64,000 bases of DNA from positions 50,947,229 through 51,011,228 of the forward strand of contig CM047426.1 of NCBI GenBank assembly GCA_026168455.1, read 5' to 3'. Positions 11,633 to 40,201 of the stretch are shown piece by piece. This DNA comes from Theocolax elegans (lineage: Eukaryota; Arthropoda; Insecta; Hymenoptera; Cerocephalidae). Within the stretch, counting starts at the first letter, position 1. The number at the start of each line of letters is the position of its first letter. The notes beneath the pieces are model-generated. The model had not been told where the DNA came from and ran no database searches. It worked only from the letters and a program-made list of their open reading frames with translations. A program made the position numbers and the translations under genes.

Positions 11633-11639
11633 TACATTA

Positions 11640-12606: not shown

Positions 12607-12657
12607 AATAACAAATAATTTGTGTTTGTAACAGAAAACGTAAATAAACAAAAAAAA

Positions 12658-14853
12658 ATGGACGCTGATCAGACAAGACAATTTGTAACATCAATGCATA
12701 ATATGTCATTAAGTATGACAATGCAATCAGCAACAATGCATATACCCTTTTTCGATGAAAAAAATATGCCACTAAAAACCTTCATTCAAGATGTTGAAAA
12801 TGGTAGCGCCATCGCCGGTGATCAAGAAGCAGTATTCATTAGTGCTGTAAAATCTAAGCTTAGAGGACTGGCACGAGATTGTCTTGATGGAGTGCGAATA
12901 AACACTGTCGCAGAATTGACGAACGAATTAAAAAAATTTTTCGCCCCTCGTCGCAAGTATACAGACTTTTGCACCGAGTTACAAAATGTTAGAATGCACC
13001 GATCCGAAACGGTGACAGAATTTTACTTACGTGTGAAAAAACTGCAGGGATCGACAGAAGCAGCACTGATAAACGAATATGGCGTCGAGAATAATACGAA
13101 CTCACCTATAGTCAGAGATATGGCTATAAAAGGTTTTTCTAAGGGTCTAAGAGACAAGTTCAGTTACGGAGTCACTCTCACGAATCCAGAAACACTGCAA
13201 GCCGCGTATAACTTAGTCAAATCGACATCATTAAGATACAATACAGAAATAGAATACCAAGACACAATAAATCTTTTCGGAATATCGGGTAGCAAAGTCT
13301 TCACCCTTGGGTCTTGCGAGCTCCACATACAGGGAAAACCCGCTATTTTTCATTTAAGCGGCAGCTTCCTCCCAGATAATTGCGATGGAATTCTTGGAAT
13401 TGAATTTTTAACAAAAGAAAGAGCAGAAATTTCGTTTCATAACCAAACTCTTGTTACTGCAACCTCGCCAATCACACCAATACCATTTATTATTCAATAT
13501 GAGAGGAACGATGAAAAAGAAAGTATCTCTGGACGATATTACACCATCAAAGCTCGCTCAAGACAAGTAATCTCTATCCCAGTAACAAATAATCTTACCG
13601 AAGGATACATTGAACGAGTCGAACTACCAGAAGGAATATACCTAGGTAACGCAGCTGTTAGAAATCAAGGAGGAGAATGCTACGCATTCATAATTAACAC
13701 TCATAACCGGAACACCAGAGTTTATATCCCTCCTCAAACTTTAGAACCATTTGAAACTAATGACATTATTGATGACTTTAGAGATTTTCCATTCCCTTCA
13801 AATTCGAATAAAAATCCTCACAACCGTTTCGAAGAATTAGAAAATAACCTGCATATAGAACATCTAACTTCAGAGGAAATTAATAGTATAATGACTTTAA
13901 TCAAAGAATACCAAGATATTTTCCATTTACCTAGTGAAACGCTACCAGCTACAAATATTTGTACTCATAAAATCCCCACTATAGACGAGCAACCAATAAA
14001 CATCCGCCAATATCGATATCCACCAATACATAAAGAAGAAATTAACAAACAAATTAACCAAATGCTTGAACAAGGAATTATTCAGCCGTCTAGCTCTCCA
14101 TACAATTCACCGCTATGGATAGTCCCCAAGAAACCGGATTCCAAAGGTAACAAGCGATGGAGACTTGTTATAGATTTTAGGAAATTAAACGAAAAAACAA
14201 TAGGAGACGCCTACCCTCTCCCTAATATAAACGAAATATTAGATCGCCTAGGAGCAGCAAAATACTTTAGTATTTTCGATTTATCTAGCGGATTTCATCA
14301 GATTTTAATGGACGAAAAAGACAGGTGCAAAACTGCATTTAGCACACCTGGAGGACATTACGAATATGTTCGGATGCCCTTTGGTTTAAAAAACGCACCC
14401 GCACAATTTCAACGTGCGATGGAAATTGCACTCTCTGGCCTCGTGGAAATAGAAGTATTTATTTACATAGATGATATTGTAGTTTATGCTAGTTCTTTAC
14501 AAGAACATCAAAATAAATTACGAAAATTGTTCAAACTAATAAGATCAGCAAATCTAAGATTGCAACCCGACAAGTGCGAATTTTTACGTAAGGAAGTCTG
14601 TTATGTAGGACATATAATAACAGATAAAGGAGTCAAACCTAACCCGGAAAAAGTTAACGACGTTGAAAACTTCCCTAGACCTAAAACACAAAAAAATATT
14701 AGAGAATTCCTTGGATTGGCCGGTTATTATCGACGATTCATTGAAAATTTTTCAAAACGAGCCAAACCCCTATCCGACTTATTAAAAAAAGATACAGAAT
14801 TTACTTGGGAACAGGCACAAGAGCTTTCAAGATTTAAAAAGAACTCTTTGTAA
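12658..14853 (+). pseudogene. Gag-Pol fusion: capsid, protease remnant, reverse transcriptase (element 2)
   Basis: Translation most likely begins at ATG 12658 (MDADQTRQF). Residues about 1-195 form the Gag capsid region, which assembles the particle (LRGLARDCLDG, LKKFFAPRRKYTDF). At about 13255 it passes directly into the C-terminal part of a retroviral-type protease (CDGILGIEFL), without nucleocapsid zinc knuckles and without the protease Asp-Ser/Thr-Gly active site. This is an in-frame internal deletion. Reverse transcriptase follows from about 14000, with LVIDFRKLN and the catalytic FIYIDDIVVYA. The frame fails near 14820, before RNase H. The RT core looks intact, but the protein could not mature. 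Confidence 0.85.
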
Positions 14854-15285
14854 AGAACCAATCCTTCAATATCCCGATTTTTCAAAACCATTCGTACTCA
14901 CCACCGATTCTTCAAACGTCGCAATCGGAACAGTACTTAGCCAAGGTCCCATTGGAAAAGATTTACCAATAGCATATACCTTTCGAGTTCTTAATATTAC
15001 AGAAAGAAATTATTCCACTGCGGAGAAAGAATGTCTCGCATTTGTATATGCCGTGAACCACTTTAGACCATACCTATTTGGTAGAGAATTTACTCTTGTT
15101 ACCGACCATAGACCGCTATTATGGTTACACTCTGTGAAAGATCCCAGCTCTCGATTAGTTAGGTGGAGATTGAGATTATCCGAATATCAGTATAAAATAG
15201 TACATAAAGCCGGAAAAATTAATTTAAACGCCGACGCTTTGTCTCGCAATATACCAGAAGCAAAAGCTTATCAATTACTGAGGAA
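14822..15285 (+). pseudogene. RNase H domain in a displaced frame (element 2)
   Basis: RNase H residues are in the frame one base out from the RT: TTDSSNVAIG, AEKECLAF, TDHRPLL and NADALSR. A single extra base near 14820 moves the reading out of the RT frame, and a change near 15270-15280 returns it to the original frame, where the tether begins (TEENVAPEKRKRGRPRK). The two lesions offset one another, so only this domain is out of register. A simple indel pair is more likely than programmed frameshifting, because no slippery site is evident. Confidence 0.75.
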
Positions 15286-17646
15286 AACGTGGCTCCCGAA
15301 AAAAGGAAACGAGGAAGACCACGAAAGGATTCTCAATCAGCCAAACCACTTCAACCACCCACTACATCAACACCAATAGCTTCACGCCTTAGGTCAAAAG
15401 ACTCCCAAAAGATTAATAACCCTTCGCCACCCCAGTATAACGAAACTTCAGATGAAAGCGACGAATCGGAAGAAGAACCCGAATACAACAATGAATGCCC
15501 ACCAGCTCCATCCATCCGAAGTAGCATGTTACCAAGCTTACTTCCTCAGCCCCCTTACTTACCGACAGAAGAATTGGAAAACACTGCTACAAATAATACA
15601 GATCTCTCAACTCTGTTCCACATCGATAATAGCGATGACGACTCAGACAACGACGAGACCTCTTCAAATCTAAGAGCTATTGCTAAAAACCTACAAGCGA
15701 ATGATTCCGAACTTTCACTTTCACAACTAGGAAATGCAATAGAGAAAGTCAAATCATTAACCAACGACATAACAGATATAAATTCTAGCTTGGATGACAG
15801 TTTGAATATTTTACAAAATTTCAACACTCAAGAATCAACTATCACTGTTCCACCCGCTCCTTTTCCTCCAAACCCTGAAAATTCTGCAAATATCATAAAT
15901 CAACCACCAACCAGTCAACCTACACCATTACTACATTCGACATCTTTCCCTCACAAACCTCATCAACCTCGTTATTCTCCTTTAGATAATTTAACTATAC
16001 CTCGAGAAGAAGATTAACAAAACTACATAAGCCAAGAAGAAGATGACATCGATACAGAACAAAGGAATAATAATCACATATCCACAACGGTAGCCACTAA
16101 TGAAACTGACAACCATAATCTGTCAAAAACAATACCTGACGAAATAGAAACTTGTCAAAATAGATCAGTAGATTTTACTATTACACCTACCACCGAATCA
16201 TTAACCTTTAGGAAATCAAATTATGTTCATTTCATGTCCGCTGATTGTGAACTAACCAAACCAATACGAAAATTATTATATGAAATTAAGGCATTCGATT
16301 TAGAAGACATTAGACAAAAACACCCATCCAAAGGTCAAATAATTGTTACACAAATAGGAAAATATAAGACATTTCATATAATTTGCAAAACAAATCATTT
16401 TGAAAAAACCAATCTTAACGATATTAAAATTGGTTTAGAAAATTTACGGAAAATACTACTACAGGAAAAAATTTACCAATTTAGAATTCGTACACATGAC
16501 GAAACAGAATATCTACCCAAAAATGGATTATTAGACCTTTTAAACGAAATATTCAAGGATTGCTCATTAAAAATTACATTATGTTATGGTAACACCATTT
16601 TTGCACCAGAAACTATTAGAGAAACAATAATAAAAGAAGCCCACGACAGTTTAGTTGGTGGACACAAAGGTTGTACCAAAACCTATAAACGAATAAGAAG
16701 CAGATTTTACTGGCCGAACGTGAAATCTGAAATCACAGAATACGTTAGAAAATGCCGCAATTGCCAAACACAAAAATTAATAAGAATTAAGACAAAAATG
16801 CCGATGATGATTACAGACACTCCAATAGAAGCCTTTTCTAAAGTGGCATTAGATACCGTCGGTCCTTTACCTCTAACCCCAAATGGTAACAGACACATTT
16901 TAACTATGCAATGTTTATTAACAAAATATTGCATAGCCGTTCCAGTACCAGACATTAAAGCAACTACCATAGCACATGTTTTTACTACACATTTCATTGC
17001 TATATATGGATCTCCAGACACTATTCGAACCGATCGAGGAACTAGTTTTTTAAATAAAATATTTCGAGAGTTAGCTACGATCTTTAAAATTGATCACGTT
17101 AAAACTTCTGGCTACATGGCTCAAACTAACGGGTCGATTGAAAGAAGTCATATAGTATTAACAGAATACTTAAAAAGCAACCTTGATTACTACGAAGACT
17201 GGGATTCATTAATACCGTTTGCCATGTTTTCTTATAATACGTCTGAACACACCTCAACTAAGTTCACACCTTATGAGATGGTCTTCGGAAAAATAGCAAA
17301 ACCTCCCTCATCCATATTCATAAATAGAAATATTGAAACATACTCCGATTATGTTGCAGAATTAATAAATAGACTTAACGAAATACAGATAACGGGAGCC
17401 CAAAACTTAATTAAAGCCAAACTCATCGAAAAACGCTATTATGACCAGAATGTAAAAGAAATCAATTTAAACGAAGGCGATCAGGTCCTGGTTTTACGAG
17501 AACGACGGAAAAATAAATTTGATAGCCAGTATCATGAACCCTACACCGTTATAGAAATAACCGAAAAAAATAACGTAATATTAGAGGACGAAAATGGGAA
17601 ACGATTTCTAAAACATCCAAACAAACTCAAGTTATTCAATGAATAA
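15280..17646 (+). pseudogene. Long AT-hook/acidic tether and integrase (element 2)
   Basis: The region begins with a basic AT-hook (KRKRGRPRK), continues into a Ser/Pro/acid-rich, low-complexity stretch of about 240 residues, and is cut by a TAA at 16015-16017. The same frame resumes, and from about 16234 shows the region that precedes integrase in mdg1-like elements. The integrase HHCC domain (HDSLVGGHKG ... CRNCQTQK) and DDE core (LDTVGPLPL, RTDRGTSF, NGSIERSH) follow, then a C-terminal DNA-binding region ending at 17646. Integrase inserts the cDNA. From 16234 on it is uninterrupted (470 aa). The long tether between RNase H and integrase is unusual. Confidence 0.85.
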
Positions 17647-17734
17647 ATTTTTGCAGGAAGATCATCGATAGGAAATAAACACAATAAACCTAACAAAAAC
17701 GCTCACATGGATCGCGCTCTTCTCCCTCTTACGA

Positions 17735-19609
17735 ATGCTATCAGCACAGTCAATCATTGGTTATGACTGTGGAGGACGAGGATTAAACATATCAAAAATT
17801 TCAACCTTAAGTGTCAAGGACTGCGACATACCAACACCTAAAACCATCGTTACTCAGAAATATATTAGACTTCTACAAATTGCAAAATTCGGCGCTATAG
17901 GTGCAAAACAGTGCAAGATTGAAATATCTAGAATAATTTACCATTGTGGCATGTATTCTTATGTATCGGTAGTAACTGGTGGACAACTGGAATACATTCA
18001 AGAAGTCTCACGCGAAAGCTGCGAAGAAATGCATATTGCAGGCATAGCAAAAATAGGTTACAATACAATCATATCAGGACTACAACCCAATAGCACCACC
18101 GTCCGACCTGTTACATTAGCCGGATCATTGAAAATTGATGGTACATGCGACGGAACCCAATATTCCGAAATGCATGGAACTTGGGACGACGTCGTAGTAC
18201 AAGCGAGCGTCATAATAACTTTAACTTCACATACCGCCAGCACAAACACGAACAGTAACCAAATACGACTCCACTCTGGAACTGTTTGTAAACTGTCAAA
18301 AGAAAACTGCATGGACACCGTGGGAGGCCAAACTTTCTGGAGGAATTCACCATCAAGCAACTGCAAGTTCGAAGACTATCAAGTCTTGTACGAAGGAATG
18401 GCACATATAACCACTAACTTGGACGAACCGGTTCATAAACCTTTATTTACAGTTCTAGGTAAGGATTTTACCTTTTCATTAATCAGCACGGGAAAAACTC
18501 AAGTTTGTGGTTATGTGTTCCTGAAAACCGAACATGCACAATTATTTATATCCGAAGCAAGCGATAACGAAGCCCCTTTTGTACAAACAAAAAAATCACT
18601 ATCCGAAAATATAGATTTATTCACTTACGTAAATTCTAAGTTCGTTTATGTAGAACGTCTTATACGTTTATACCGCGATATAATTATGCAGAAATGTTTA
18701 GTAGAAAGAAGAGTACTTAAAAATTTACTTTCCTTCTCCACCATCAAACCCGACGAATTTGCCTACAACCTAATGGGAGAACCTGGTTACATAGCTGTCA
18801 TTACCGGTGAAGTAACAAGGCTCATCAAATGCCTACCAGTTCAAGTTTCCATCAGACGCACCGAAAACTGTTTCATAGAATTACCGGTTTGGAAAAGTAA
18901 TTCAACATATTTCCTCATACCAAAAACCCACATCCTCTTGAGAAAAGGAACCGAAATTCCATGCGATGCAGCAATACCATCAACCTACAAGATCAAAGAT
19001 AGTTGGTACGAATTCACGCCAAATCCGAGAAAAACTACCGCACCAGAAATACTCGAACCTAACGTAGCCTTCAATTGGACCTACGAGGACCCTGGAGCAT
19101 TAGCAACCAGTGGCATCTACACAATTAAAGAACTGGACAACCGCCAAGAGAGAATTATGTTCCCCATGGAACAACCAGCTCTCCTCAACACACTGACCAG
19201 AGGAATAACGGGACAAACAATCGAAAACCAAGGCGTTTCTCTTCATAACCTTTTAAACGAAGATAACATCAAACACATGGCCACGTCTTTCTGGTACAAA
19301 TTGTGGAACAAATTCTTCGTTTTCGGAAACGCAATGTCTGGTATCCTCGGGTTATATCTAATAATCAAATTCATCAAAGCATCAGCCGATACTATACTAC
19401 AGGGTTACGCTCTTCATCAAGCGTATGGTTGGTCGGTAAAACTGTTAGCAGCCGTATGGAATTCCTTAACCCAATTTCTGTTACACTCCGCTCACCGAAG
19501 AAATCAACGACAAGATGAGGAACAAGCAGAACCAAAAGAACTGATGGTCTTAGAAACCAAAGATATTCCCAAATCCTCTCCTCGAGCTCTATCCACCGAC
19601 ATCCCGTAA
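17735..19609 (+). CDS. Envelope-like glycoprotein (element 2)
   Basis: The 624-aa ORF in the env position is uninterrupted. The frame is open upstream to 17672, and a hydrophobic signal-like stretch (LTWIALFSLL) precedes the first ATG, so the real start may come from splicing; TTTTTGCAG at 17647-17655 is a possible acceptor but an in-frame TAG at 17669 follows it. The mature region begins with a Cys-rich segment (GYDCGG), has many cysteines, and ends with a membrane segment at about residues 530-550 (GNAMSGILGLYLIIKFI) and a short cytoplasmic tail. No baculovirus-F-type fusion protein pattern is apparent. The layout recalls glycoproteins of negative-strand RNA viruses of arthropods, such as chuviruses; this is inference. 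The role would be membrane fusion and spread. Confidence 0.7.
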   Translation: MLSAQSIIGYDCGGRGLNISKISTLSVKDCDIPTPKTIVTQKYIRLLQIAKFGAIGAKQCKIEISRIIYHCGMYSYVSVVTGGQLEYIQEVSRESCEEMHIAGIAKIGYNTIISGLQPNSTTVRPVTLAGSLKIDGTCDGTQYSEMHGTWDDVVVQASVIITLTSHTASTNTNSNQIRLHSGTVCKLSKENCMDTVGGQTFWRNSPSSNCKFEDYQVLYEGMAHITTNLDEPVHKPLFTVLGKDFTFSLISTGKTQVCGYVFLKTEHAQLFISEASDNEAPFVQTKKSLSENIDLFTYVNSKFVYVERLIRLYRDIIMQKCLVERRVLKNLLSFSTIKPDEFAYNLMGEPGYIAVITGEVTRLIKCLPVQVSIRRTENCFIELPVWKSNSTYFLIPKTHILLRKGTEIPCDAAIPSTYKIKDSWYEFTPNPRKTTAPEILEPNVAFNWTYEDPGALATSGIYTIKELDNRQERIMFPMEQPALLNTLTRGITGQTIENQGVSLHNLLNEDNIKHMATSFWYKLWNKFFVFGNAMSGILGLYLIIKFIKASADTILQGYALHQAYGWSVKLLAAVWNSLTQFLLHSAHRRNQRQDEEQAEPKELMVLETKDIPKSSPRALSTDIP

Positions 19610-19779
19610 TCAAAATGATTTTCTTCTTCTCTCATTTCTTTTTTTCAAGACTCATAACAAAGTAGCAGTAGTGTAGTTAGATTTTGTAATTAGACAAAAG
19701 TTAAGGTAATTAAAATTAGTGTTGTGTGTGTTATTTTTCCGTAGTAAATAATTTAATTTTATGCTCCATTTTAATGTTA

Positions 19780-19802
19780 TTACAGCTGCTGACCTGCTGT
19801 AA
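19780..19802 (+). ncRNA. Hairpin H17, conserved 9-nt loop, in the env retroelement
   Basis: TTACAGC / GCTGTAA form a perfect 7-bp stem around TGCTGACCT. The loop and closing GC pairs match the hairpin family of the arrays at 24057-24904 and 39918-40177. It sits between env and the lysine-rich ORF. Confidence 0.55.
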
Positions 19803-19841
19803 CGATCATATACAAAAATAGATATAGACAAGAAAAAAAAA

Positions 19842-20573
19842 TTGATGAAAATGAATCCATCACCAAATCTCGTTCTGGTTAAAGAGAACAAAAAGAAGAA
19901 AAGGCGTGGCGGTAAGAACACACGTGTTCGATGTGAACATCGACATTTTATGATGGCAGGTAATCAGTCCAAGGCTAACCTGGGGATTCAACATTTTAAA
20001 CAATTCTTGGAAGCAACTAACACCGAGTTGTCAAACAGATTCCACGTTGACACTAGCTCAAAGGTCGAATTAAATCTAAACAACTATTTTACGACACCAA
20101 AAGAAGACCCACTCTTCATAGAACCAGTGCAGGAAGAAGAAATTCCATCCCAAACTACGATCGTCGATGTTAAGGAAATCCTGAAAGGAGCAATAATAAA
20201 AAACCACCAAATGCGTGATTTAAGTTCTGTTATTTCGGAAAAGGGATTTCCAGATAATTATCGACCCCCAACACCATGTTGTTCGCCGCTACGAGAAAAT
20301 CGACTCAAATCAGAACATAAAACTGATAAACACAGACATAAATCCCACAAAAAGGAAAAGAAAAGAGAAAAAGAACGAATCAATAAAACCAAAAGAAAAA
20401 GCAGCGGAAACCATAAAGACAAGAAAACCGACAACCATTATAAAAGAAAAGAAAAAACAAATAATAAAAAGGACAAACCGCATCAATCTAAAGAACCAAA
20501 AGCGTTTAAAATTCCAAAGACTAAAGAATATAGTCCAGGACCAATCGGTCAAACCCAGGGAGGATTATTTTAA
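19842..20573 (+). CDS. Lysine-rich ORF downstream of env (243 aa), function unknown
   Basis: An intact ORF between env and the polypurine tract; most Gypsy elements have no gene here. There is a basic patch near the N-terminus (KKKKRRGGK), a central segment rich in acidic and hydrophobic residues (about 60-110), and a very lysine-rich disordered C-terminal half (KKEKKREKERINKTKRKSS). It has no recognisable domain. It might bind RNA, replacing the missing nucleocapsid basic region, or act as a nuclear accessory protein; both are guesses. Candidate ATGs are at 19842 and 19845 (Met-Met); others (for example 19851) follow in frame. It would have to come from a spliced or internally initiated transcript. 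Confidence 0.55.
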   Translation: MMKMNPSPNLVLVKENKKKKRRGGKNTRVRCEHRHFMMAGNQSKANLGIQHFKQFLEATNTELSNRFHVDTSSKVELNLNNYFTTPKEDPLFIEPVQEEEIPSQTTIVDVKEILKGAIIKNHQMRDLSSVISEKGFPDNYRPPTPCCSPLRENRLKSEHKTDKHRHKSHKKEKKREKERINKTKRKSSGNHKDKKTDNHYKRKEKTNNKKDKPHQSKEPKAFKIPKTKEYSPGPIGQTQGGLF

Positions 20574-20621: not shown

Positions 20622-20624
20622 TCA

Positions 20625-21504
20625 TGTAATGAACCGGTAAAATTTTTTGTCGGAAATTTAACGCGTTATTTTATTTCCATGTTTCTATTATTTCATTAAC
20701 AAATTCGTTTGGAAAATCGAATTATTTCCTTTCTATCAAAAAGAAAATAGATTAAGAGTATCGATACAAATTTTCTCAGCATTACAAGTTTACTTATAGA
20801 TAGCCCAACAAATAATGTACTCTCTTACTTTGGAAGTTCCTAAGATAAACTCCCATCTAAAAATATCATATAAGTAAGTGTTATATAATATTTTTAGTTT
20901 CAATAAATAATCATCTTATTTCAATGTACATATTTGTTTGCAATTATTTATACAGTTAAATGATAAATTATACATAAAATTTATACTTGCTATTTTAAAA
21001 ATTCGAATAAAAATTTGTATTAATCAATATTGGATAATTAAAAACAAATACTTATAATATTTTTGACCTATAAATTTTCGCAAACAGATATTATAATAAA
21101 CTAAAGATTTTATTTTACTCTATTTGTATTAAATCTCAATGTACGTTAGTTTATAAAATCTAGACTTAAGTTTAGGGAAAAATACAGAGAATTTCAAATA
21201 ATCTTTAATAAATAATTAAACATTAATATAACTTCATTTCTCCTTAAATTTAAAAACATTCACAATTAATATTAGTTCATTTCTTTTAAACATTTTCTGT
21301 CATAATTAAGATGACTTATTTTGATCGATTTTAAAAACAATTGGAGTATTTTTGTAATATAATAAAGCAATAAAATAAATAAATTTTATAATTTTTTTCT
21401 ATTATAACAAAAAGGAGAAATGAGGGCAAAAATCGAGAAAACGTATAGAAAATCATGTTATTTTTTTCCCACCATACCTGGCGAGCCCTAATCTCAGTTT
21501 CTGT
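20625..21504 (+). repeat. Possible 3' LTR U3 of element 2, not confirmed
   Basis: By position this should be the start of the 3' LTR. It is AT-rich without coding. It cannot be matched to the short leader remnant at 11640-11918, so the assignment rests on the polypurine tract only. CATTACA at 20780-20786 would pair with TGTAATG as a very short LTR, but I do not favour this. Confidence 0.3.
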
Positions 21505-21505
21505 A

Positions 21506-23682
21506 CCCCGTTGAAAAAGTTCCTATTGATTCAGTATTGATTCTGTGATGAAATCATTATGAAATTAATAAATAATAGCTACTGATATTGATCAAAATTA
21601 ATACTGACTCAGTAGTAAGTTCTCACCAAAACGCAAAACTGATTTCTTACTGAATTATTACAAAATCAGTAATGAATCAATGTTGTATCATTATGGAATC
21701 AGTACTGTATCAGTTTTGAAATTATTTAATTGAAAAAGGGCAATGTTCCCTTAAAAATTCAGTATTCAATTAATTCAGAATCAGTGTCAAATCAATACCC
21801 TGTTTAAAAAATTCACACTGATTCAGTACTGATTTCTCTAAAAAATAAATAAAATAAATTTTTTTAGATAATTCTCTAAAAAAAATTAGGTAAAAACAAA
21901 TAAAATTGTCAAAAAAACATAAAATAAATAAAAAAAAGTATTACACATTTTTCTGTTTATGTTAGTTATTCACCCATCCACTTATTAACCGCGGTCAATG
22001 CCGCTTAACTTTCATTATCTATCATTTCTCAGTCTATTCGCAATGCTACATTCACAAACAGTTACAAAGATAATAAAAACATATTTGTAGATATTTCAAA
22101 AAACCCAATTAGAATTTATTTTAATGGTATTAATTTATAGGAATAAACATATATTTAAAAATATGGACAATTTCATTCAAGTTAAAATTTTAATGTACAT
22201 ATCGGTACCATATTAGAAGAACAAATATATTGCAGCAATTTCATATTAATTGTAACTAGGCTTTTTGAAACGTCTACAAATATGTTTTCATTACCTTATT
22301 GTAACTGTTGTGAATGTAGCAGATAGAAGATAGTAAATCATGCAATAGAAAATACTAAAATCAGTATGGAAGTTAATATTCATTCATTTGTACGATATTA
22401 ATTTCTCCATAATGTATTAAAACGTAAATATCTCTATTTTATTGGTTTAAACTAAAATACAAAAAATAATTTTAAACCAATAAAAAAGAGATATTTACGT
22501 TTTTATTACATATGGAGAAATTAAAATGCACAAACGAGTATTATTATTAATATTATATTGTTTATTTATTGATGTAAGATACGCCAGGGCTAACAATTAT
22601 GAAATAAATTTTGTGTAACACTTTTTGAGTAAATGTACAGCTAAATTTTTCAGCAGAAAACTTGATGATTTCATTTTGATTTCAGTATTTTCTGTTGCAG
22701 TAAGTTTGAATAAAGTAAGATAAGAATTGCTAAAGTGTAATCGAAATTGCATCATACTTTCGAATTTTTACACCTTTGTAGAAGGTCTTTTAGATATTTA
22801 ACAATTGGATTAATGAAATATATGTACTTGAAATGTTAAATAATATAACCTTAAAGAGATGTTATTATTACTTCCATACTGATTTTAGTATTTTCTATTG
22901 CATGATTTACTATCTTCTATCTGCTACATTCACAAACAGTTACAATAAGATAATGAAAACATATTTATAAAAAGCCTAGTTACAATTAATATGAAATTGC
23001 TGCAATATATTACTAAATATATATTTGTTTAAAAATATATTTATTCCATTAAAATTAATACCATTAAAATAATTTTTAACTGGGCTTTTTGAAATGTCTA
23101 CAAATATGTTTTTATTATCTTTGTAACTGTTTGTGAATGTAGCATTGAGAATAGACTGAGAAATGATAGATAATGAAAGTTAAGCGGCATTGACCGCGGT
23201 TGATAAGTGGATGGGTGGATAACTAACATAAACAGAAAAATGTGTAATACTTTTTTTTATTTATTTTATGTTTTTTTGACAATTTTATTTGTTTTTACCT
23301 AATTTTTTTTAGAGAATTATCTAAAAAAATTTATTTTATTTATTTTTTAGAGAAATCAGTACTGAATCAGTGTGAATGTTTTAAACAGGGTATTGATTTG
23401 ACACTGATTCTGAATTAATTGAATACTGAATTTTTAAGGGAACATTGCCCTTTTTCAATTAAATAATTTCAAAACTGATACAGTACTGATTCCATAATGA
23501 TACAACATTGATTCATTACTGATTTTGTAATAATTCAGTAAGAAATCAGTTTTGCGTTTTGGTGAGAACTTACTACTGAGTCAGTATTAATTTTGATCAA
23601 TATCAGTAGCTATTATTTATTAATTTCATAATGATTTCATCACAGAATCAATACTGAATCAATAGGAACTTTTTCAACGGGG
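21506..23682. mobile_element. Foldback element with TA target duplication
   Basis: It begins CCCCGTTGAAAAAGTTCC and ends with the reverse complement, flanked by TA on both sides (21504-21505 and 23683-23684). Arms of about 850 bp (21506 to about 22370 and about 22865 to 23682) pair throughout. The outer 330 bases of each arm are full of TCAGTA/TACTGA. The centre holds a nested inverted repeat (about 22420-22505: CGTAAATATCTCTATTTT...AAAAAGAGATATTTACG). No transposase is visible; TA duplication suggests mobilisation by a Tc1/mariner-like source. Confidence 0.75.
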
Positions 23683-24056
23683 TATATAAGGACGGAGAAA
23701 ATGCCGTCTCGAGGTTGATTCATCCCTTGTCCATTGGCAGGGACGATCGCCACTTTTTAGTTGTCTCCCGTAGGAACAACATATAATTTTTTTTTATTAC
23801 CGAATGTCTCTCGATTTTTCTCTCGAACGCTTTTTCTTTTGATAGAAATTTCTTTTCTTTCAAAGTTTTTATACATTTACTTTAGTTGTCACTTATCATT
23901 TTATTGTAACGATTATTGTTATTTTACTCGAACAAAAAACGCGTGTAAAGCCGTTGTGAGCTGCGTTTTGGAGAATTGTAAGTAACACGTCAATTATAAT
24001 AATTTTACTAACACTTTAGTATTTTTCTATATTTTTCTTATTGTACCCGAACTATA
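23683..24056 (+). promoter_or_regulatory. TATA-like promoter segment before hairpin array 1
   Basis: TATATAAGGACGG (23683-23695) looks like a core promoter and overlaps the TA used by the foldback insertion. The following sequence is T-rich without coding. A degenerate relative of the array hairpins (TTGTGAGCT followed by GC, 23954-23964) lies within. This could be an LTR R/U5 region. Confidence 0.35.
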
Positions 24057-24904
24057 GAGAAATTGAAGCTTTAGTTCTGCTTTATTTCTCCATATCCAAA
24101 TTCCTTTTATAAAATAATTCGCTGTAGATCTGCGAATTATTTCTATCCTTTGTTTAAGCACCGTCAATAATAGAAAACGCTGTAGATTTGCATTTTCTAT
24201 TCGCCGCTGCTTATACGTGTCAAACACTGCGCATTTGACACTTCATTCTTTTTCTCTCTCACTCCCATTGCTTTAAGTTACAGCTTTTTCCTCGTGTTCG
24301 TAAGCATCACGTGTAAAGCAGAGCAGACGCCCCTCCTGGCGTCCCCTCTCTCTCCAGACGCGTGCCTACTGCTTGCATTGGGGAAAACCCATGCGCTGAG
24401 TACTAGCCCTTCCTGGCATACTCTCTCCCTCCCTCTCTCTCTCTCTCTCTCTCTCACTTTAATAACGTACTTACGCTGTGGATCTGCGTGTATGTTTTGG
24501 TAGCGAGTAGAAAACTTTGTAGCCTTGTAATCGTGTACATTCCATACCGACATACAGATATACATATCATTTCCTACCTTTATGGTAAATAGAAGAAGCT
24601 TTAGATCTGCTTTAACTATTTACTATAACTCCAAAAATAAATTAATTTCGCTTTAGTTCTGCGAAATTAATCATTATATTAAACTCTCCATCCTTTATTT
24701 CCATTGTCTCACCGTCGATAATAGAGAACGCTGTAGATCTGCATTTTCTATTATTTGTCGGCTAAGACGCATTAAACACGCTTTAGATCTGCGTGTTTAC
24801 CCTTCCCTTTTCCTTGGCACTAGTAGAAGACGCTGCAGACCTGCATTTTCTGCTAACTGTCAAAATCCCACGTCTCGAATACGCTTTAGCTCTGCGTTTT
24901 CGAG
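24057..24904 (+). ncRNA. Hairpin array 1: ten hairpins sharing one 9-nt loop
   Basis: Loops (all closed by GC...GC) lie at 24070 TTTAGTTCT, 24123 TGTAGATCT, 24181 TGTAGATTT, 24477 TGTGGATCT, 24600 TTTAGATCT, 24652 TTTAGTTCT, 24732 TGTAGATCT, 24782 TTTAGATCT, 24834 TGCAGACCT and 24885 TTTAGCTCT. Stems differ completely but pair: AAATAATTCGC with GCGAATTATTT (24112-24142), ATTAATTTCGC with GCGAAATTAAT (24641-24671), TAAACACGC with GCGTGTTTA (24773-24799), AGTAGAAGACGC with GCATTTTCTGCT (24822-24854). A further hairpin (24217-24241) has a 9-nt loop with another sequence. A (TC)n tract interrupts at 24421-24455. The frame is full of stops, so it is not coding. Constant loop with varying paired stem implies selection on RNA structure or repeated copying of a structured unit. 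Function unknown. Confidence 0.75.
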
Positions 24905-24929
24905 CGTTGCGAGCCTTTTCATATACATA

Positions 24930-25002
24930 TATATCATACGCACACACACACACACATATATATATACTAGGGGGGCTTCGCCCCCCTGCGCGCTTCGCGC
25001 GC
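24930..25002 (+). repeat. Microsatellite and two GC-rich TTC-triloop hairpins
   Basis: (AC)n and (AT)n tracts run to about 24966. Then GGGGGGC-TTC-GCCCCCC (24970-24986) and GCGCGC-TTC-GCGCGC (24988-25002) form two adjacent, very stable hairpins in otherwise AT-rich DNA. This may be the end of a mobile element. Confidence 0.6.
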
Positions 25003-25089
25003 CAACCCACTATTTTTAATTTCGAAAAAGGTTTTTCGTAATTAATTTATTTAAATTAATGTTTTAAATTGTATTATTTTTTCACTACC

Positions 25090-28000
25090 ATGGACACCTT
25101 AAAAATTAAACAGATTCACACAACACCTTGGAGGTATTGCTATAGTTATTATAATATATAAATAAAAGTTTACCAAAATTTAGTGTAATGAAATCAGAAT
25201 AAAAGTAATTACAAAAATAGAGACATATTAAATGTTAACTGTAAATTTTAAACTATATGAATTCTTATAAAGCTTAAATTTATATTTTAATAATTATAAA
25301 TGTTAATGAAAAATTAACTTACCAAAAATAGTAAAGTACATATACTTACTAAATTGTAGTATTTTAGTTAACAATTTATTAAAATTTTGGATTATATTAA
25401 ACGGTTATAAATAGAACTTCACCTCCTAAAATTAATTTATTTAATGACGAACGATCATCGCCAGAAATTCTATGTCATTAACATTATGTACTTTTAGAGT
25501 AATAAAACTTTCTTCTTTAATAAATAAATTTTTGTATTAATTTTAAAGAACTATTTAAAACAAATTAGCGGCATATAAATAAAAACCTGTTTCTTCCATT
25601 ATTCCCGTGATTCGTAATTTGCACCTTCCTTCAAAATTTGCGTTTTAATCCATAATTATATCCAATTTATTTTTACTATGCAGAGCCCAAATATTTATTT
25701 TGATTATTATAAACAAATTCATTTCGTAAATATCCTTCTATTTCTAATAAATACATACTTGTTTATTTAAAATATTGTGTTATATAAATATAAATTATCT
25801 ACACACTTATATATCCATACAATTTTGAAATATTAAATTAAACAATATTTAAATTAAATGCTCCTAAATTAATAGTTTTTGAAATTTATTCAAATGTAAT
25901 TCGTATTTCATACTGCCACTGTTAAAATTTGAATTTGCTTTTGCCTATACTGTTTATAATAGAATTATCTTAAAAATGCAATAATTAATATATTTAATTT
26001 TTAACCCATTGTATATATCATATGGATATTTGGAAAAGTGTATGTTATACTTGATTAATATTTATTTAATCTTCAAATAATTTTGCATCTGTATTTAAAG
26101 CATTACATTGCATTTTAGATCCGTTATTATTGTTGGGTATACGTTTAAAAATTTTATGAGTTTTATCAAGAATGAGTAGACAAATACACATTCTTTCAAG
26201 TTATGTTCACAACTTTTGTTTGCGCACGGAAAAAATACGTATATTATGTATTCTTGAAAAAACAATTTTAAAATATATATATATTATATAAATATTACGC
26301 CGCACGCACACACACCCACATACATACATACATATATATACATATATATGGTTTATTTCACGTCAAGTGGTACAATGAAAATTTTAAATCACTCCAAAAT
26401 TTGAGAACAGGCTGGAAATATCGTCCAGAACATAGAAAAAAAATTTAAGTGTTAAAAATAACTTCCTTAAGAGTTATTCGACCATAAAAAGTGGAAATTT
26501 TTTAATTTGTTAGAAAAATTTCTATTTTTAAAGCCATTTATCTCAAAATCTGTTGATTTTTTTGAAAAAACATTACAAACAACTTTTGTTTAAATTAATC
26601 TTTAGAACTTATCTACCAAGGTTACATTTCTTAATTTTAAAATCTCGAAGAGATAGAACATCCGGACATATTGAATATCAAAAAAAGGCTACCACACCAT
26701 AATCGATTTTAATCTAACACCTCTCAAAAGTTCACATTTTTCGCGAGCTTTCGAATGGCTTGGGTTAGCTTATTGGCCAAGACCGCTGTTGTAAGTTATG
26801 CCTCATAAACCTCATAAAATCACTGATTTTCACGTATTTTAGGACATAACTTACACCAAAGGTGTAATGTATATATAATATATATATGGGGTATTCCACG
26901 TGAAGTGGTCCGATCAAAATTTTAAAATGCACCAAATTTTGAGTACACTTTGCCAATTTTTTTACAGAATACAGAAAAAAATTTTAGGTACTGGAATTTA
27001 TTAGCTCAAAAGTTATTATAACCTCTTCCATAATTATATCCAATACATTTTTACTATGCAGAGCCCAAATATTTATTTTGATTATTATAAACAAATTCAT
27101 TTCTTAAATATCCTTCTGTTTCTAATAAATACATACTTGTTTATTTAAAATATTGTGTTATATAAATATAAATTATCTACACACTTATATATCCATACAA
27201 TTTTGAAATATTAATTTAAAAAATATTTAAATTAAATGCTCCTAAATTAATAGTTTTTGAAAATCTATTCTGTTAAAATTTGAATTTTCTTTTGCCTATA
27301 CTGTTTATAATAGAATTATCTTAAAAATGCAATAATTAATATATTTAATTTTTAACCCATTGTATATATCATATGGATATTTGGAAAAGTGTATGTTATA
27401 CTTGATTAATATTTATTTAATCTTCAAATAATTTTGCATCTGTATTTAAAGCAATACATTGCATTTTAGATCCGTTATTATTATTGGGTATACGTTTAAA
27501 AATTTTATGAGTTTTATCAAGAATGAGTAGACAAATACACATTCTTTCAAGTTATGTTCACAACTTTTTTTTGCCGCACGGAAAAAATACGTATATTATG
27601 TATTCTTGAAAAAACAATTTTAAAATATATATATATTATATAAATATTACGCCGCACGCACACACACCCACATACATACATACATATATATACATATATA
27701 TGGTTTATTTCACGTCAAGTGGTACAATGAAAATTTTAAATCACTCCAAAATTTGAGAACAGGCTGGAAATATCGTCCAGAACATAGAAAAAAAATTTAA
27801 GTGTTAAAAATAACTTCCTTAAGAGTTATTCGACCATAAAAAGTGGAAATTTTTAATTTGTTAGAAAAATTTCTATTTTTAAAGCCATTTATCTCAAAAT
27901 CTGTTGATTTTTTTGAAAAAAACATTACAAACAACTTTTGTTTAAATTAATCTTTAGAACTTATCTACCAAGGTTACATTTCTTAATTTTAAAATCTCGA

Positions 28001-30840
28001 AGAGATAGAACATCCGGACATATTGAATATCAAAAAAGGCTACCACACCATAATCGATTTTAATCTAACACCTCTCAAAAGTTCACATTTTTCGCGAGCT
28101 TTCGAATGGCTTGGGTTAGCTTATTGGCCAAGACCGCTGTTGTAAGTTATGCCTCATAAACCTCATAAAATCACTGATTTTCACGTATTTTAGGACATAA
28201 CTTACACCAAAGGTGTAATGTATATATAATATATATATGGGGTATTCCACGTGAAGTGGTCCGATCAAAATTTTAAAATGCACCAAATTTTGAGTACACT
28301 TTGCCAATTTTTTTACAGAATACAGAAAAAAATTTTTAGGTACTGGAATTTATTAGCTCAAAAGTTATTATAACCTCTTCCATAATTATATCCAATACAT
28401 TTTTACTATGCAGAGCCCAAATATTTATTTTGATTATTATAAACAAATTCATTTCTTAAATATCCTTCTGTTTCTAATAAATACATACTTGTTTATTTAA
28501 AATATTGTGTTATATAAATATAAATTATCTACACACTTATATATCCATACAATTTTGAAATATTAATTTAAAAAATATTTAAATTAAATGCTCCTAAATT
28601 AATAGTTTTTGAAAATCTATTCTGTTAAAATTTGAATTTTCTTTTGCCTATACTGTTTATAATAGAATTATCTTAAAAATGCAATAATTAATATATTTAA
28701 TTTTTAACCCATTGTATATATCATATGGATATTTGGAAAAGTGTATGTTATACTTGATTAATATTTATTTAATCTTCAAATAATTTTGCATCTGTATTTA
28801 AAGCAATACATTGCATTTTAGATCCGTTATTATTATTGGGTATACGTTTAAAAATTTTATGAGTTTTATCAAGAATGAGTAGACAAATACACATTCTTTC
28901 AAGTTATGTTCACAACTTTTTTTTTCCGCACGGAAAAAATACGTATATTATGTATTCTTGAAAAAACAATTTTAAAATATATATATATTATATAAATATT
29001 ACGCCGCACGCACACACACCCACATACATACATACATATATATACATATATATGGTTTATTTCACGTCAAGTGGTACAATGAAAATTTTAAATCACTCCA
29101 AAATTTGAGAACAGGCTGGAAATATCGTCCAGAACATAGAAAAAAAATATAAGTGTTAAAAATAATTTCCTTAAGAGTTATTCGACCATAAAAAGTGGAA
29201 ATTTTTTAATTTTTATAAAAATTTCTATTTTTAAAGCCATTTATCTCAAAATCTGTTGATTTTTTTGAAAAAACATTACAAACAACTTTTGTTTAAATTA
29301 ATCTTTAGAACTTATCTACCATGGTTACATTTCTTAATTTTAAAATCTCGAAGAGATAGAACACCCGGACAAAAAATTCACAAAAATTAACATGGTATTT
29401 CCCATTTAAATTTTTTAAAAAATTTGGTGTTTCTTTGAATTATCCTAACTTTTTACAGAATTGAAGGCCATAAAAATGCTACAGACCATTTGAAATGTAT
29501 TGCTCCAAACTTTTTATTAGACTTTTGGATAAAAAAATCAATTGTGGCGCACTTACACTTTTTTTAAGTTGATAGTTTAAGTAATATTGACCTTGAGATT
29601 AGAAATTCTATTCCAGAAGAATAAATTCTACACATAATTAGCAACGAATGTTACATATAATGTTGTATAGTAAAAGTTGATAGATTTTGGGTTAAATAGC
29701 GATGACCCCAGTTGGTGCTGAAAAAAACTGGAAAAAGTTCACTTTTTGAGGTTAGAATAACTTTTGAGCTAATAAATACCAGTACCTAAAAATTTTTTTC
29801 TGTATTATGAAAAACATTTGCAATGTGTACCCAAAATTTGGTGCATTTTAAAATTTTGATCGGACCACTTCACGTGGAATACCCCATATGTATGGTAATG
29901 AACAATTAACTTACCAAAAATAGTAAAGTGCATATACTTAAATGTAGTATTTAGTAAAAACCTATTAAAATTTTAGATTATTTTAAACGGATCTAAATAG
30001 AACTTTACCTCCTAAAATTAATTTATTTAAGTCATCGCCAAGAGTTCTATATGTCATTAATATTTTGTACTTTTAGAGTAATAAAACTTTCTTCTTAATT
30101 AAATTAATTTTTGTATTAGTTTTAAAGAATTATTTATAATATTTTAGCGGTATATAAATAAAAACCTGTTTCTTCCATTTCTCCCGTAATTCGTAATTTG
30201 CACCCTCTTTCAAAATTTGCGTTTTAATCCATAATTATATCCAATTTATTTTTCCCTTTAGTAACAGAGCCCATATATTTATTTTAATTATTATAAACAA
30301 AGGCATTCCTTAAATAACCTTTTGTTTCTAATAAATACATACTAGTGTATTTAGAATATTGTTTTATATAAATATACGTAATCTACTTACTTATATATCC
30401 ATACAATTTTTAAATTTGATTTGAATAATATTTAAATTAAATACTACTAAAATAATAATTTTCGAAAAACTTTTGAAATGTAATTCGTATTTTATATTGC
30501 CATTGTTAAAATTTGAATTTTCTTTTGCCATTACTGTTTATAATAGAATTATCATAGAAATGCAATAATTAATGTATTTAATTTTCAATTTATTGTATAT
30601 TTCACATATAGATATTTGGAAAAGTGTATGTTATACTTGATTAATATTTATTTTATCTTCGAAAAATTGTGCATTTTTTTAAAAACATTACATTAAATTT
30701 TAGGTCCGTTTTTATTTTATGAGTTTTATCAGGAATAAGTAAACTAATACACATTCTTTCAAGTTATATTCACAACTTTTTTTTGCGCACGGAAAAAATA
30801 CATATATTATTTATTCTTGAAAATACAAATAACACGTACA
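25090..30840 (+). repeat. Tandem array of repeat units of about 1.35 kb
   Basis: The segment CCATAATTATATCCAAT recurs at 25650, 27028, 28380 and 30229. The unit at 27028-28379 is 1352 bp and near-identical to what follows it up to about 29360; the first copy (25650-27027) is slightly more diverged. Flanks 25310-26290 and 29895-30820 are a longer, older direct repeat. Each unit ends in an AC-rich tract (CGCACGCACACACACCC). A 63-residue frame at minus 26765-26956 and 28116-28307 is identical in two units only because the DNA is duplicated. No genes are supported. Confidence 0.75.
29050..29886. mobile_element. MITE-like element with CACGT-containing terminal inverted repeats
   Basis: The left end GGTTTATTTCACGTCAAGTGG-like (written here as GGTTTATTTCACGTC) is matched in inverse by ...CACGTGGAATACC at 29870-29886, and the following bases (AAAATTTTAAA) also pair. 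Pieces of both ends recur in direct orientation inside the other tandem units (26350, 26888, 27700, 28239), showing rearranged copies. No transposase. Superfamily not assigned. Confidence 0.5.
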
Positions 30841-30841
30841 C

Positions 30842-30871
30842 ACTCACACGTACACACACACACGCACACGC

Positions 30872-30921
<50 letters not shown>
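30842..30921 (+). repeat. (AC)n microsatellite, 5' flank of the R1-clade LINE
   Basis: An (AC)n tract that equals the AC-rich segment at the end of the neighbouring repeat units. The LINE begins directly after it. Confidence 0.85.
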
Positions 30922-30923
<2 letters not shown>

Positions 30924-31070
30924 GTGCCGGGTTTGCTGGTCCCGCATCGTGACGCCTCCCCAGGTGGTGGATAGGGGAATGCTTTCCAGATATGGATGGT
31001 ACCGAAAAAATCAAATATTCGGGGCGAACCAAAACCAGATAGGGGAAGGCACCCCGAAATAAAACCAAGT

Positions 31071-32481
31071 ATGGATAGTGAGCTGAAAACAACACTACCC
31101 CAAGCGGGCATGGCAATCCTGTCAAATCCCGCCACTGATTCCGATCGGGTGAAAGCCCCGGTGGTCAGTGCTGGTCCCAAGGATTTTGGGGGGGACCAAA
31201 CTCACACCGTCAAAATGGTAAATGCTGCGGAGGTTGGTCACTCGGCCTCTGTAGCATCTAATGCTACGTGTGACCTGCCCTCGACTGGGATCTCGAGTGA
31301 CGCTGACAGAGCTTTTCTCCGTCTGCGTGAGAAGGTAGATACCCTGGTGGAGTTTGTTCTTAATAAGAACAACATCCACAAAGAGCTGAAGAGTATGGCG
31401 AGAGCAACCAGCAGAGCTCTCAATGAATACGCGCGGGTGAACAGTGCTGTGTGTTCGACAGCGCCGAAAATTAAAATGGCGGATGCGCGTAGGGATGGAA
31501 CGTGCCAAACGTCGCCCATCTTCCGCGCTGAAGAGCGTCAAAAGAGGCCGGTGGAAAGTGAAAAGCCCTCGCCACCTCAGCAACCCCCGGAGAAATGGAA
31601 GAAGGGCTCGAAGCAGCCCAATAACAAAAATGGGCCAGCAGATGCTTCGCCATCCGTTCCTAAGACGAGTGGGAACCAGTCAAAAGTCCTTGACTGGGTC
31701 ACAGTAGTGAAGAAGGGCAAGAAGAAAAAGAAGATGAAGAACAGCCAGCCGAAGCAGCATGAACAGCAGAAACGTGCCAGCAAACCGGCCAAAGGCACGG
31801 CAGAGCCTAAGACCGGAGTAAGACCCCCACGCCCAGATGCCATCAAGATCAAGACACCTAGCGGGGGCTCTTCCTACGCTGACATTCTCCGGAAGGTCAA
31901 GGCTGCACCGGAGCTAAAGGCACTAGGAGAACGGGTCACGCGTATCAGGCGCACCAGGGCTGGAGAGCTCCTCCTCGAACTGGGGCGACCCGGAACGGAA
32001 ACGGCGGAGCTGAGGACAGTGGTCTCGTCCACACTGAGTGGGTCAGCAGAGGTCCAGCTGCTGACTCACAAAGTGTCCATCACCATCAGGGACATGGACG
32101 AGTCCACGACAACAACGGAGGTGGCCGCAGTGATTGCGGCAAAGATCGGGCCAAATGTGGTATCCCCGGATAATATTAAAACCAGGGGATCCTACAGTGG
32201 CACCCTAGCTGCGACCATCCAGCTTCCGGCAGTAGCAGCCAAAAAACTGCTGCAAGACGGGAAGCTCCGGATCGGATGGGTCAATTGCAGAGTTCGACTG
32301 CGAGAGGTATCCTCGCGCTGCTACTGATGCCACGAATCGGGACACATCGCGAGGGAGTGCAAGAGCGCAGTCGACCGGTCAGCGCAATGCTATCGGTGCG
32401 GCCAAGAGGGCCACAAAGCAGTGGACTGCGAGGCCAAAGCCAAGACCTCGCATGAGGAAGGAGCACACATCAAAAATGATT
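31071..32481 (+). pseudogene. LINE ORF1 (Gag-like RNA-binding protein) with premature stop
   Basis: Open upstream to 30996, but MDSELKTT at 31071 is the better start. The N-terminal half is disordered and lysine/proline-rich (KKGKKKKKMK). The C-terminal third (about residues 290-410) is the conserved central region of R1-type Gag proteins. A TGA at 32325-32327 interrupts the first zinc knuckle; the same frame continues CHESGHIAREC and CYRCGQEGHKAVDC, ending at TAA 32479-32481. CGA to TGA decay would explain the stop. The protein binds element RNA and guides it to the target (family knowledge). Confidence 0.8.
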
Positions 32482-33537
32482 AAGGTGCTCCAAATAAACC
32501 TCAATCACTGTGCGGTGGCCCAGGACCTGCTGTCCCAGCTGGTCAGAGAGGAGAGAGCGGACGTAGCGATCATCAGCGAGGAGTTCCGGGATCTCGAGAA
32601 GTCGAACTGGGTAAGGGATGCCACGGGCAAGGCGGCCATCTGGGTATGTGGAAATATACACATCTCCAGGAAGATGGTCGCCCCCCTTCCCAGCTTCACC
32701 TGGGTGGAGGTGGCGGGGGTACGCATGTACAGCTGCTACTTCCCGCCCAGCGATTCCACCGAGGACTTTGCGAGATCTCTGGATGCAGTCGTCACCAGTG
32801 CTCGGTCCTCACGGCTACCGGTCGCAATCGGTGGGGACTTTAATGCTTGGGCGACGGACTGGGGCAGCGCCAAGACCAACGCGCGTGGTCGCGCACTTCT
32901 CGAGGCGTTCGCTCTACTGGGGCTGGAGATCGCTAACACAGGGACAACCCCGACTTTCACCAAAGCCGGCAAGTCGTCCATAGTCGACCTCACCTTCGTC
33001 GATCCAAGATTGATGGGGGGAGGGGGACTCGGCTGGAAAGTTAGCGATCGTTACACGGGTAGTGACCACCAAGCACTCGTGTACCAGCTCCAGCTGACCA
33101 GCGGGAGGACAAAGAGAGCAGGAAGAGGAGCAAGAGAGAGATGGGCACCAGCCACGTTTGATCGTGAGACGTTCCTCTGCTCCCTTGAGGGGGAAAAAGT
33201 GGAGGGAACCGCCGAAGAAAAAGCACGAGGCCTCACGAATGCCCTAACAGCGGCTTGCGATGCCTCTATGGCCGTGAAGTTTAACCCTCGCGGCCGTCCA
33301 CCGATAATCTGGTGGAGTGAGGACATCGCAGAAAAGAGACGTGAGTGCCTTCGTGCCAGAAGGCTGCACCAAAGAGCGAGGGGAACACCCGCGGTTCCAA
33401 GATCGTTCCGCAGAATACGAACAAAAACGGAGGGATCTCAAGGTGGCCATCAAGACTGGCCAAGAGAAGGTGTTGGCGGGAGCTCTGTGAGGAGGTGGAC
33501 ACACGACCCCGGGGCAGACCGTATAAAACGGTTATGA
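32476..33537 (+). pseudogene. LINE ORF2, endonuclease part
   Basis: The likely start is ATG 32476, overlapping the ORF1 stop; an in-frame ATG lies also at 32452. The apurinic-endonuclease fold is visible: INLNHC, IISEEF, GGDFNAWATDWGS (about residue 130) and SDHQAL near residue 205. It nicks the target DNA to prime reverse transcription. The frame changes near 33345, where the link to the RT domain begins, and ends at 33537. The endonuclease domain itself is uninterrupted. Confidence 0.85.
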
Positions 33538-34690
33538 ATAAGATCAACCCCGGGGGCGCTGTTGCACCCACCGACCCAGTTTTTCTGGAAGAAGTCGTCC
33601 GCCACCTGTTTCCAGAACATCGGAAAAGGGCAGCAGAGACGGGCCTGATGGCCACCATTGGTGCAGCCGAGGTCGCCAGACATTAGTGAGACCGAAAGGA
33701 AACAAACCCCCGGAGGAGCCATCATCTTACCGCCCGCTCTGTCTACTGGATATAGTCGGGAAGCTCCTGGAGCGGGTGATCTGCGCCAGGCTTGCAGAGG
33801 CCATCGGTCGGGCCGGAGACCTCTCCGACAACCAGTTCGGCTTCCGAAAGGGTCGATCGACCATGGATGCTGTAGGCAGAGTTGTTGGCATAGCCACAAA
33901 CGCCATCAATGCTGGTCGGAGTGCACGGCGGATGTGTGCCATCATCACCTTGGACATCCGGAATGCCTTCAACTCTGCCAGATGGGACGACATCATGCTG
34001 TCCCTGCAGCACTTCCAAGTGCCACTCTATCTCAGGGAGGTCACCTCGAGTTACCTGACTGACCGTACTCTGCTCTACGACACCGACGACGGTGTGCACT
34101 CCCACAACATCACGGGAGGCGTGCCGCAGGGTTCGGTCATTGGGCCCCTACTCTGGAACGTTGTCTATGACGGCCTGCTTAGGCAGCAACTTCCGGAGGG
34201 AGTCTCGATGTGGCTTTCGCGGACGACGTGGCGCTAGTGGTGGTCGCAAGGAGTGTCGAAGAGATCGAATATCTCGGAGACGTCTCTATAGAAGTGATCG
34301 TCAATTGGTTGAGAGACCACGGACTTAGTCTGGCGGCGGAAAAAACGGAGGCGGTGCTCATCTCTCGCACAAAAAAGGAGAGGACCGCCACCTTCACGGT
34401 AGGTAAAGAACGGATACGGTCGGTGAAAACGTTGAAAGTATTTAGGGGTCACAGTAGACGCGCGGCTGTCGTTCAAACACCATCTCGCGAACGCAGGCTC
34501 AAAGGCGACAAGGTGGCCCGTGCGCTGGCGGGCATCATGCCCAACATCGGGGGACCCAGCACCGCGAAGGTCTCTCCTTGCCTCGGTGTTGAGCTCCGTA
34601 ATTTTATACGGAGCTCCTATCTAGCTGATGCCCAGAACAGGCCACAAGAGCTTTGGTGCTCCGTGCCAGAGAGCCTACAGGATAGCTGCG
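33345..34690 (+). pseudogene. LINE ORF2, RT segment, duplication copy 1 (truncated)
   Basis: The linker frame (33345-33686) ends in a stop just before an RT segment (33691-34690). This copy lacks the RT N-terminal block (KAPGPDG) found in the next copy, and its catalytic region is broken by the loss of one base (gatgtggc against gatggtggc), so the FADD motif is out of frame. It is near-identical over 1 kb to 34895-35893. A further extra base occurs near 34437. Confidence 0.75.
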
Positions 34691-34699
34691 GCGCCAGAC

Positions 34700-40177: not shown

Positions 40178-40201
40178 CTTTAATTCCCGTCACACGACTT
40201 A

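Follow-up and report, generated by a model that had tools for sequence, protein, structure and literature searches.

The stretch of the Theocolax elegans genome analysed here (the window, 64,000 nt in full) is rich in transposable elements, and the ORFs of one of these, an endogenous retrovirus, fill 12250-20573. Its gag-pol ORFs (RT, RNase H and integrase; 12619-17646, plus strand), delimited by ORF calls, Pfam and alignment of copies, are followed by an envelope ORF (17672-19609, plus strand) for a chuvirus-like fusion glycoprotein, which matches Pfam Monjiviricetes_fusion over nearly its full length (E 6.9e-219) and has no sequence match in the PDB, and then by a last ORF at 19845-20573 on the same strand. 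RVT_1, RT_RNaseH and Integrase_H2C2 score above the Pfam cut-offs, Retrotrans_gag (22.0 bits) and rve (30.2) fall slightly under theirs, and the domain order is gag, RT, RNase H, integrase and then env. We take the three domains above cut-off to be Gypsy-type rather than BEL/Pao and, with its class read from domain content and order, the element looks like a Ty3/Gypsy-like endogenous retrovirus with an env, LTRs and a primer-binding-site-like sequence. Relative to three copies elsewhere in the genome (L024, L010 and L016), in none of which a CCHC pattern was found in any frame, the window copy is without about 0.6 kb of gag at 13210. A 118-aa ORF ahead of gag (12250-12606) has no Pfam match. 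Elsewhere in the window we observed repeats of about 98 and 196 bp together with longer duplicated blocks (6432-10202), LINE-like ORFs in two copies offset by about 1204 bp (33772-35869), and two minus-strand ORFs (58129-59558) that look like a broken piggyBac-type transposase.

Comparison with other copies revealed the LTRs. The 3' end of the 5' LTR survives at 11633-11909 (plus strand) and, as read by eye in the window and in L024, the primer-binding-site-like TGGTGACAGCGG follows it. The 3' LTR is present in three plus-strand pieces, at 20625-21505, 23682-24966 and 39735-40201. In copies aligned to the window these segments occur in the order 20625-21505, 23682-24966, 39735-40201, 11633-11909, and in L009 they make up a single unit of about 3.1 kb; five copies share a limit of homology at 20623-20625, and six share one at 11907-11910. 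Between the first two pieces sits a fold-back element (21499-23689), absent from L009 and L017, with 638-nt inverted arms that are 98% complementary, at or adjoining the TATA-like box of the LTR. Nested insertions (24967-39734), recognized by comparison with the same two copies, separate the second piece from the third. Since these insertions break the 3' LTR, the hairpins at 39926-40173 described below are the second half of one array, and both halves are contiguous in L009 and L017. No copy of 11633-11909 was found after 40201 within the window, so the 3' LTR of the window is incomplete. Two perfect TTCG-loop hairpins stand at the border of the nested insertions (24970-25002), and a 1352-bp repeat in three tandem copies occupies 25597-29371, parts of it being found near hairpins in L010, L011, L016, L018, L019 and L020.

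The LTR carries an array of hairpins. An initial annotation of this DNA had described ten hairpins with a constant 9-nt loop in about 850 bp, all loops in one orientation, and all ten are indeed present on the plus strand at 24057-24904 with the loop pattern then given. A search of the window for this motif, GC-T[GT][TC]NG[ATC][TC][TC]T-GC, returned 17 sites, all on the plus strand: one at 19785, ten at 24068-24883, five at 39926-40161 and one at 50204. The last of these has a chance-level covariance-model score (E 0.19), leaving 16 credible hairpin sites in the window, the number that had been mentioned at the outset. Covariance-model matches in the first half of the array, which is also supported by motif search and shuffles, lie on the plus strand at 24060-24088, 24113-24141, 24171-24199, 24467-24495, 24590-24618, 24642-24670, 24722-24750, 24772-24800, 24824-24852 and 24875-24903, all with 9-nt loops closed by GC/GC. 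The second half (39918-40181, plus strand), found by motif search and covariance model, comprises five hairpins at 39918-39946, 39957-39985, 40024-40052, 40091-40119 and 40153-40181. Beyond what was annotated initially, not only does the array lie in a retroelement LTR and stand split in the window, but a further hairpin, H4 (24217-24241, plus strand), has lost its loop in the window copy and keeps it in L009, L012, L013, L018 and L020; the complete array, as found in L009, consists of 16 hairpins in 1.56 kb. A free-standing non-coding RNA gene, which we had considered, was dropped as a candidate once the copies revealed the LTR. A second hairpin type with another recurring core also occurs inside the array, in the window at 24326-24343 and 24398-24423 (cores GCC-CCTCCT-GGC... 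and GCCCTTCCTGGC) and in the related family described below at 3792-3803 of L024 (GCCCATCCTGGC).

That the hairpins are far beyond chance is confirmed. The shuffled-sequence control which the initial annotation had called for gave a mean of 0.25 motif sites and a maximum of 2 in 60 dinucleotide shuffles of the window, as against the 17 real sites, and a mean of 0.008 in 500 shuffles of 23691-24967. A stem score of 8 was reached by all 17 window sites and by at most one site in shuffled windows. The array stretch folds better than 20 shuffles of itself (z -6.75), and its second half better than 100 (z -4.44). Nor does the pairing survive an exchange of arms: for 17 hairpins (the 16 of L009 and that at 19785) the own-arm total was 319.5 as compared to 155 +/- 18 for swapped arms, the best of 100,000 permutations reaching 263, and with the duplicates H8 and H10 removed (n=15) the total was 276.5 as compared to 135 +/- 17, the best being 217. 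Own arms pair and swapped arms do not. The proposal that the stems are different and nevertheless pair has therefore held, and so for most units has the argument against simple tandem duplication; plain duplication is true for H3, H8 and H10 only (units 24159, 24710 and 24812), which are copies of one another (repeat family D10; 93% and 72% identity to the reference). The C-A mismatch that recurs in these three hairpins is likewise real, but it is inherited, the three units being copies.

Covariation was examined in 27 hairpins aligned without gaps (16 from L009, one from the window, eight of the nine from L024, the ninth being excluded for its GC/GT closure, and one each from L034 and L048). 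Of the cells, 82.6% pair as compared to 55.0 +/- 2.5 in shuffled alignments, cells changed on both sides numbered 84 as compared to 35.1 +/- 4.3, and the covariation score was 0.646, where shuffling gave 0.185 +/- 0.029 and sliding no more than 0.239. Two-sided changes occur in 8 of 8 variable pairs, a count that 483 of 500 shuffles reach and that hence adds nothing to the case. The GC/GC closure and the loop letters T1, G5, C8 and T9 are invariant throughout the set. Since the hairpins were picked by their loop, the loop invariance is partly built in; this does not apply to the pairing of the stems. Position 8 is T in two credible window loops (24179 and 40161). A fixed loop on stems maintained by paired changes is thus supported. 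The suggestion that G-U wobbles betray an RNA did not stand: such an asymmetry was tested and not found, with 14 G-U as against 15 A-C cells and more G-U in swapped arms (20 +/- 3), so that the RNA nature of the array rests on orientation, loop asymmetry and position. Pairing between loops through an AGATCT palindrome was also rejected, as many loops, judged by eye, are without the palindrome.

Exact copies of the 13-mer GCTKTAGWTCTGC number 217 in the 658-Mb genome, as against 16 for the reversed control. Twenty regions were retrieved from 100 listed genome places with this sequence, and 17 of the 20 contain hairpins, either of the kinds seen in the window or belonging to a related family; in L021 and L022 an unrelated repeat has the loop with only 2 bp of stem, so the comparison of 217 with 16 overstates the number of hairpins. 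In L023 two facing loop sites with short stems, at 4710 (plus) and 4388 (minus), lie outside any LTR recognized here. The second LTR piece of the window bears a TATA-like box (23683-23691) and a donor-like GTAAGT (23978-23983), which may act as promoter and splice donor. The distance from the TATA-like box to a donor-like GTAA is 250-307 nt in the three families looked at, that GTAA having been selected from the one to five GTAA[AG] that each searched stretch contains (two to five in most), and the distance to the first hairpin is 339-509 nt. The first hairpin stands 89-91 nt after the donor-like site in the window, L009, L017, L018, L024 and L028, and farther from it in L012 and L013; no hairpin was found within 1 kb after two TATA-like sites (the second LTR piece of L009, and L015), and the L034 sequence stops short of this region. 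AATAAA is present in L024 both upstream and downstream of the array, so that the array may be in R, at both RNA ends, or in U5, at the 5' end only.

Two of the copies, L024 and L028, represent a related family (family 2) whose aligned coding parts are about 75% identical in DNA to those of the window. Each has an LTR array of nine hairpins, followed in L024 by the primer-binding site and located in L028 downstream of the last ORF, and the array of this family folds better than 20 shuffles (z -3.58). Five of its hairpins match H12-H16 by order and flanks, as judged by eye. For these positional orthologues own arms average 13.7 and 14.9 as compared to 11.3 and 9.6 for chimeras of the two families, with one chimera each of H13 and H14 attaining the native-pair score. 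The families also differ in the loop: position 7 is a pyrimidine in all 16 hairpins of L009 and a purine in eight of nine in L024 (Fisher p 8e-6, for loops that are not fully independent, some being copies). Such a concerted change is what would be expected if one trans factor reads all the loops. We note that GGTTGTCGTGGCCCGTAGG upstream of H12 and CCCGTCACACGAC after H16 (the region at about 5145-5127 on the minus strand of L009 and at 3948-3966 of L024) are identical in both families and more conserved than the stems.

The isolated hairpin of the window, H0 (19777-19805, plus strand; motif and covariance model), lies upstream of the last ORF and its 5' arm includes TTACAG (19780-19785), a splice acceptor-like sequence. 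This 5' arm reads TTACAG in seven of nine copies and TTTCAG in the other two, where it makes one stem mismatch. At E <= 0.001 the last ORF has 50 genome matches, not all of which are separate copies, some being pieces of one, and an H0-type hairpin stands upstream of it in 19 of the 20 loci returned, L033 being the exception; 13 of the 19 belong to family F (represented by L034), and further families are J (L048) and B (L030). H0 is also present in L028 of family 2. The subtype of H0 is TGCTGACCT in the window and L030, TGCTGATCT in family F, and TGCAGAACT in family 2 (L028) and J.

The protein encoded by the last ORF is basic and is our candidate for a loop-binding regulator. It has no Pfam match and no significant PDB fold match, and neither a single query at E 0.001 nor a six-sequence profile at E 0.05 found a relative in the protein database. 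The six aligned last-ORF proteins share the motifs RGG[KQ][NR]TR[LV]R.E...FM.A and GP.GQTQ. In the comparisons where it can be measured, selection on the ORF is purifying, with dN/dS values of 0.30 between the window and L030, 0.17 between family 2 and J, 0.19-0.20 between family 2 and two F copies, and 0.40 between two close F copies (dS 0.03); synonymous sites are saturated in 10 of the 15 pairs. The conserved basic segment at the start of the protein is predicted to be helical by AlphaFold2, with helices at 23-40, 47-57 and 59-64 and block pLDDT values of 82-85 across residues 21-60, in a model that is weak overall (mean 59.5). Proteins with TRLRWEYK (family 2 and J) are found with purine-7 loops, and those with TRVRCEH (window), TRVRREH (B) or TRLRREQ (F) with pyrimidine-7 loops. 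This association of loop and protein subtypes amounts to one contrast and not a test.

These findings lead us to propose, with a probability of roughly one half and on the strength of sequence comparisons, that the array acts in cis as an RNA element lying in R or U5, within the part of the LTR that is transcribed, and that it is read by the last-ORF protein of the retrovirus and serves in splicing and in export or packaging. All hairpins display one and the same 9-nt loop above a GC/GC closure, the remainder of the stem would need only to pair, and the protein would bind this loop via its basic helical N-terminus; that one protein binds all of the loops is plausible. Starting about 90 nt after the donor-like site of the leader, the array would fall inside the intron of the last-ORF mRNA and be retained in genomic RNA, and protein bound along it might hold back splicing and mark the unspliced genomic RNA for export or packaging. 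At H0, which contains the acceptor-like site of the mRNA for the protein itself, binding would block that splice and limit the amount of protein by feedback. A broader reading, to which we would give somewhat less than an even chance, is of a Gypsy-type lineage with its own Rex-like control, in which a basic protein is made from a spliced mRNA, the acceptor sits in a hairpin like those of the array, one loop is set on 16 mostly unrelated stems, and co-evolution of loop and protein has spread a change at one position through the array and H0.

Alternatively, the hairpins might be a packaging or dimerisation signal by which Gag selects genomic RNA, the last ORF having another role. Multi-copy hairpins in a leader would fit such a signal, and in the gag of L024, L010 and L016, copies in which no CCHC pattern was found in any frame, an R/Y/S-rich tail might do the RNA binding. 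However, H0 sits upstream of the last ORF, outside the leader, in 19 of 20 loci, and its loop subtype goes with the subtype of the last ORF, and on this evidence we regard a Gag signal as unlikely. It is similarly doubtful that the loop is read by a host RNA-binding protein, whether for constitutive export, translation, localisation or capture by a defence pathway. The concerted difference at position 7 between two families in one genome is not readily explained by a single host factor. In favour of a host factor are the shortness and simplicity of the loop, the repetition of the array, which recalls other docking sites for host proteins, and the fact that binding by a protein of the element is itself a proposal.

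Two further explanations would dispense with a functional RNA. That the array acts as DNA, by forming cruciforms or as the site of a DNA-binding protein in the LTR with the stems as symmetric half-sites, would fit the lack of preference for G-U wobbles over A-C; yet all of the window hairpins have one orientation, the loop is asymmetric, the stems have no shared sequence and H0 overlaps an acceptor-like site, which together make a DNA-level element very improbable. We give hardly any credence to a functionless mutational mechanism, such as template switching, that builds hairpins around a fixed seed: H3, H8 and H10 do show that units are copied, but the concerted loop change on different stems between families and the conservation of H0 across families speak against such a mechanism.

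If the array is indeed an RNA element read by the last-ORF protein, control of unspliced RNA in the style of the complex retroviruses arose in a Gypsy-type element, and its RNA code would be unusually clean, with a single fixed loop carried on stems that are free to vary. The two natural loop variants and the two matching protein variants present in one genome would make RNA-protein co-evolution directly testable, and there would be a sequence tag for finding more such elements.

With regard to known systems, in HIV Rev/RRE, HERV-K Rec/RcRE and MMTV Rem/RmRE the viral RNA contains a response element to which an accessory protein corresponds; these are systems of the Retroviridae with another RNA architecture, in contrast to the Gypsy-type element here. 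The initial annotation had recognized no known family in the array, and Rfam 15 agrees in having no match at gathering score in the window; within 23690-25000 it gave 11 weak matches, every one of which falls well short of gathering score and the best of which lie at AT/CA repeats. Searches of IMG/VR by two-hairpin patterns, env, pol or the last-ORF profile returned no relative, and there was no phage match and no tRNA. In the portions available of the open-licence literature consulted, no such array or accessory gene is described (PMC10084718, PMC6540820, PMC13172572, PMC7642597, PMC10309623, PMC6714889, PMC12440569).

Anakin, a mosquito element with a captured chuvirus glycoprotein, resembles the present element in being a retroelement with a chuvirus-type glycoprotein, according to the available part of its description; it belongs to BEL/Pao (PMC7642597), whereas the element here is read as Gypsy-type from its Pfam domains. 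If true, our reading would also document a chuvirus-like glycoprotein in a Gypsy-type element, a combination that one survey, in the portion available, did not clearly find, reporting for Hymenoptera Gypsy fragments beside chuvirus-type glycoproteins and no clear Gypsy capture (PMC10084718).

A parallel in proposed function is Cer1, a Ty3/Gypsy element of C. elegans, whose spliced mRNA encodes CERV, a protein needed for the export of genomic RNA, as stated in the accessible part of the report (PMC10309623). CERV has predicted helix-hairpin-helix, M and Rossmann-type G domains, whereas the last-ORF protein described here is small, basic and mostly unpredicted; an RNA hairpin or stem-loop was not found in the same partial text on CERV (PMC10309623). 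Another parallel may be HTLV, where, in the sections available, the RNA-binding segment of the viral regulator Rex is described as arginine-rich and N-terminal, and RxRE as a structured element in the LTR, mostly in R, that is also present in incomplete form at the 5' end of unspliced RNA (PMC6714889). The likeness would lie in the basic segment of the candidate regulator and in the structured element in the LTR, and the difference in that RxRE is one complex stem-loop structure (PMC6714889, in the same sections) as compared to the 16 separate hairpins with one loop type found here. Judged by anatomy, the element may work like HTLV Rex/RxRE, and it recalls the CERV of Cer1.
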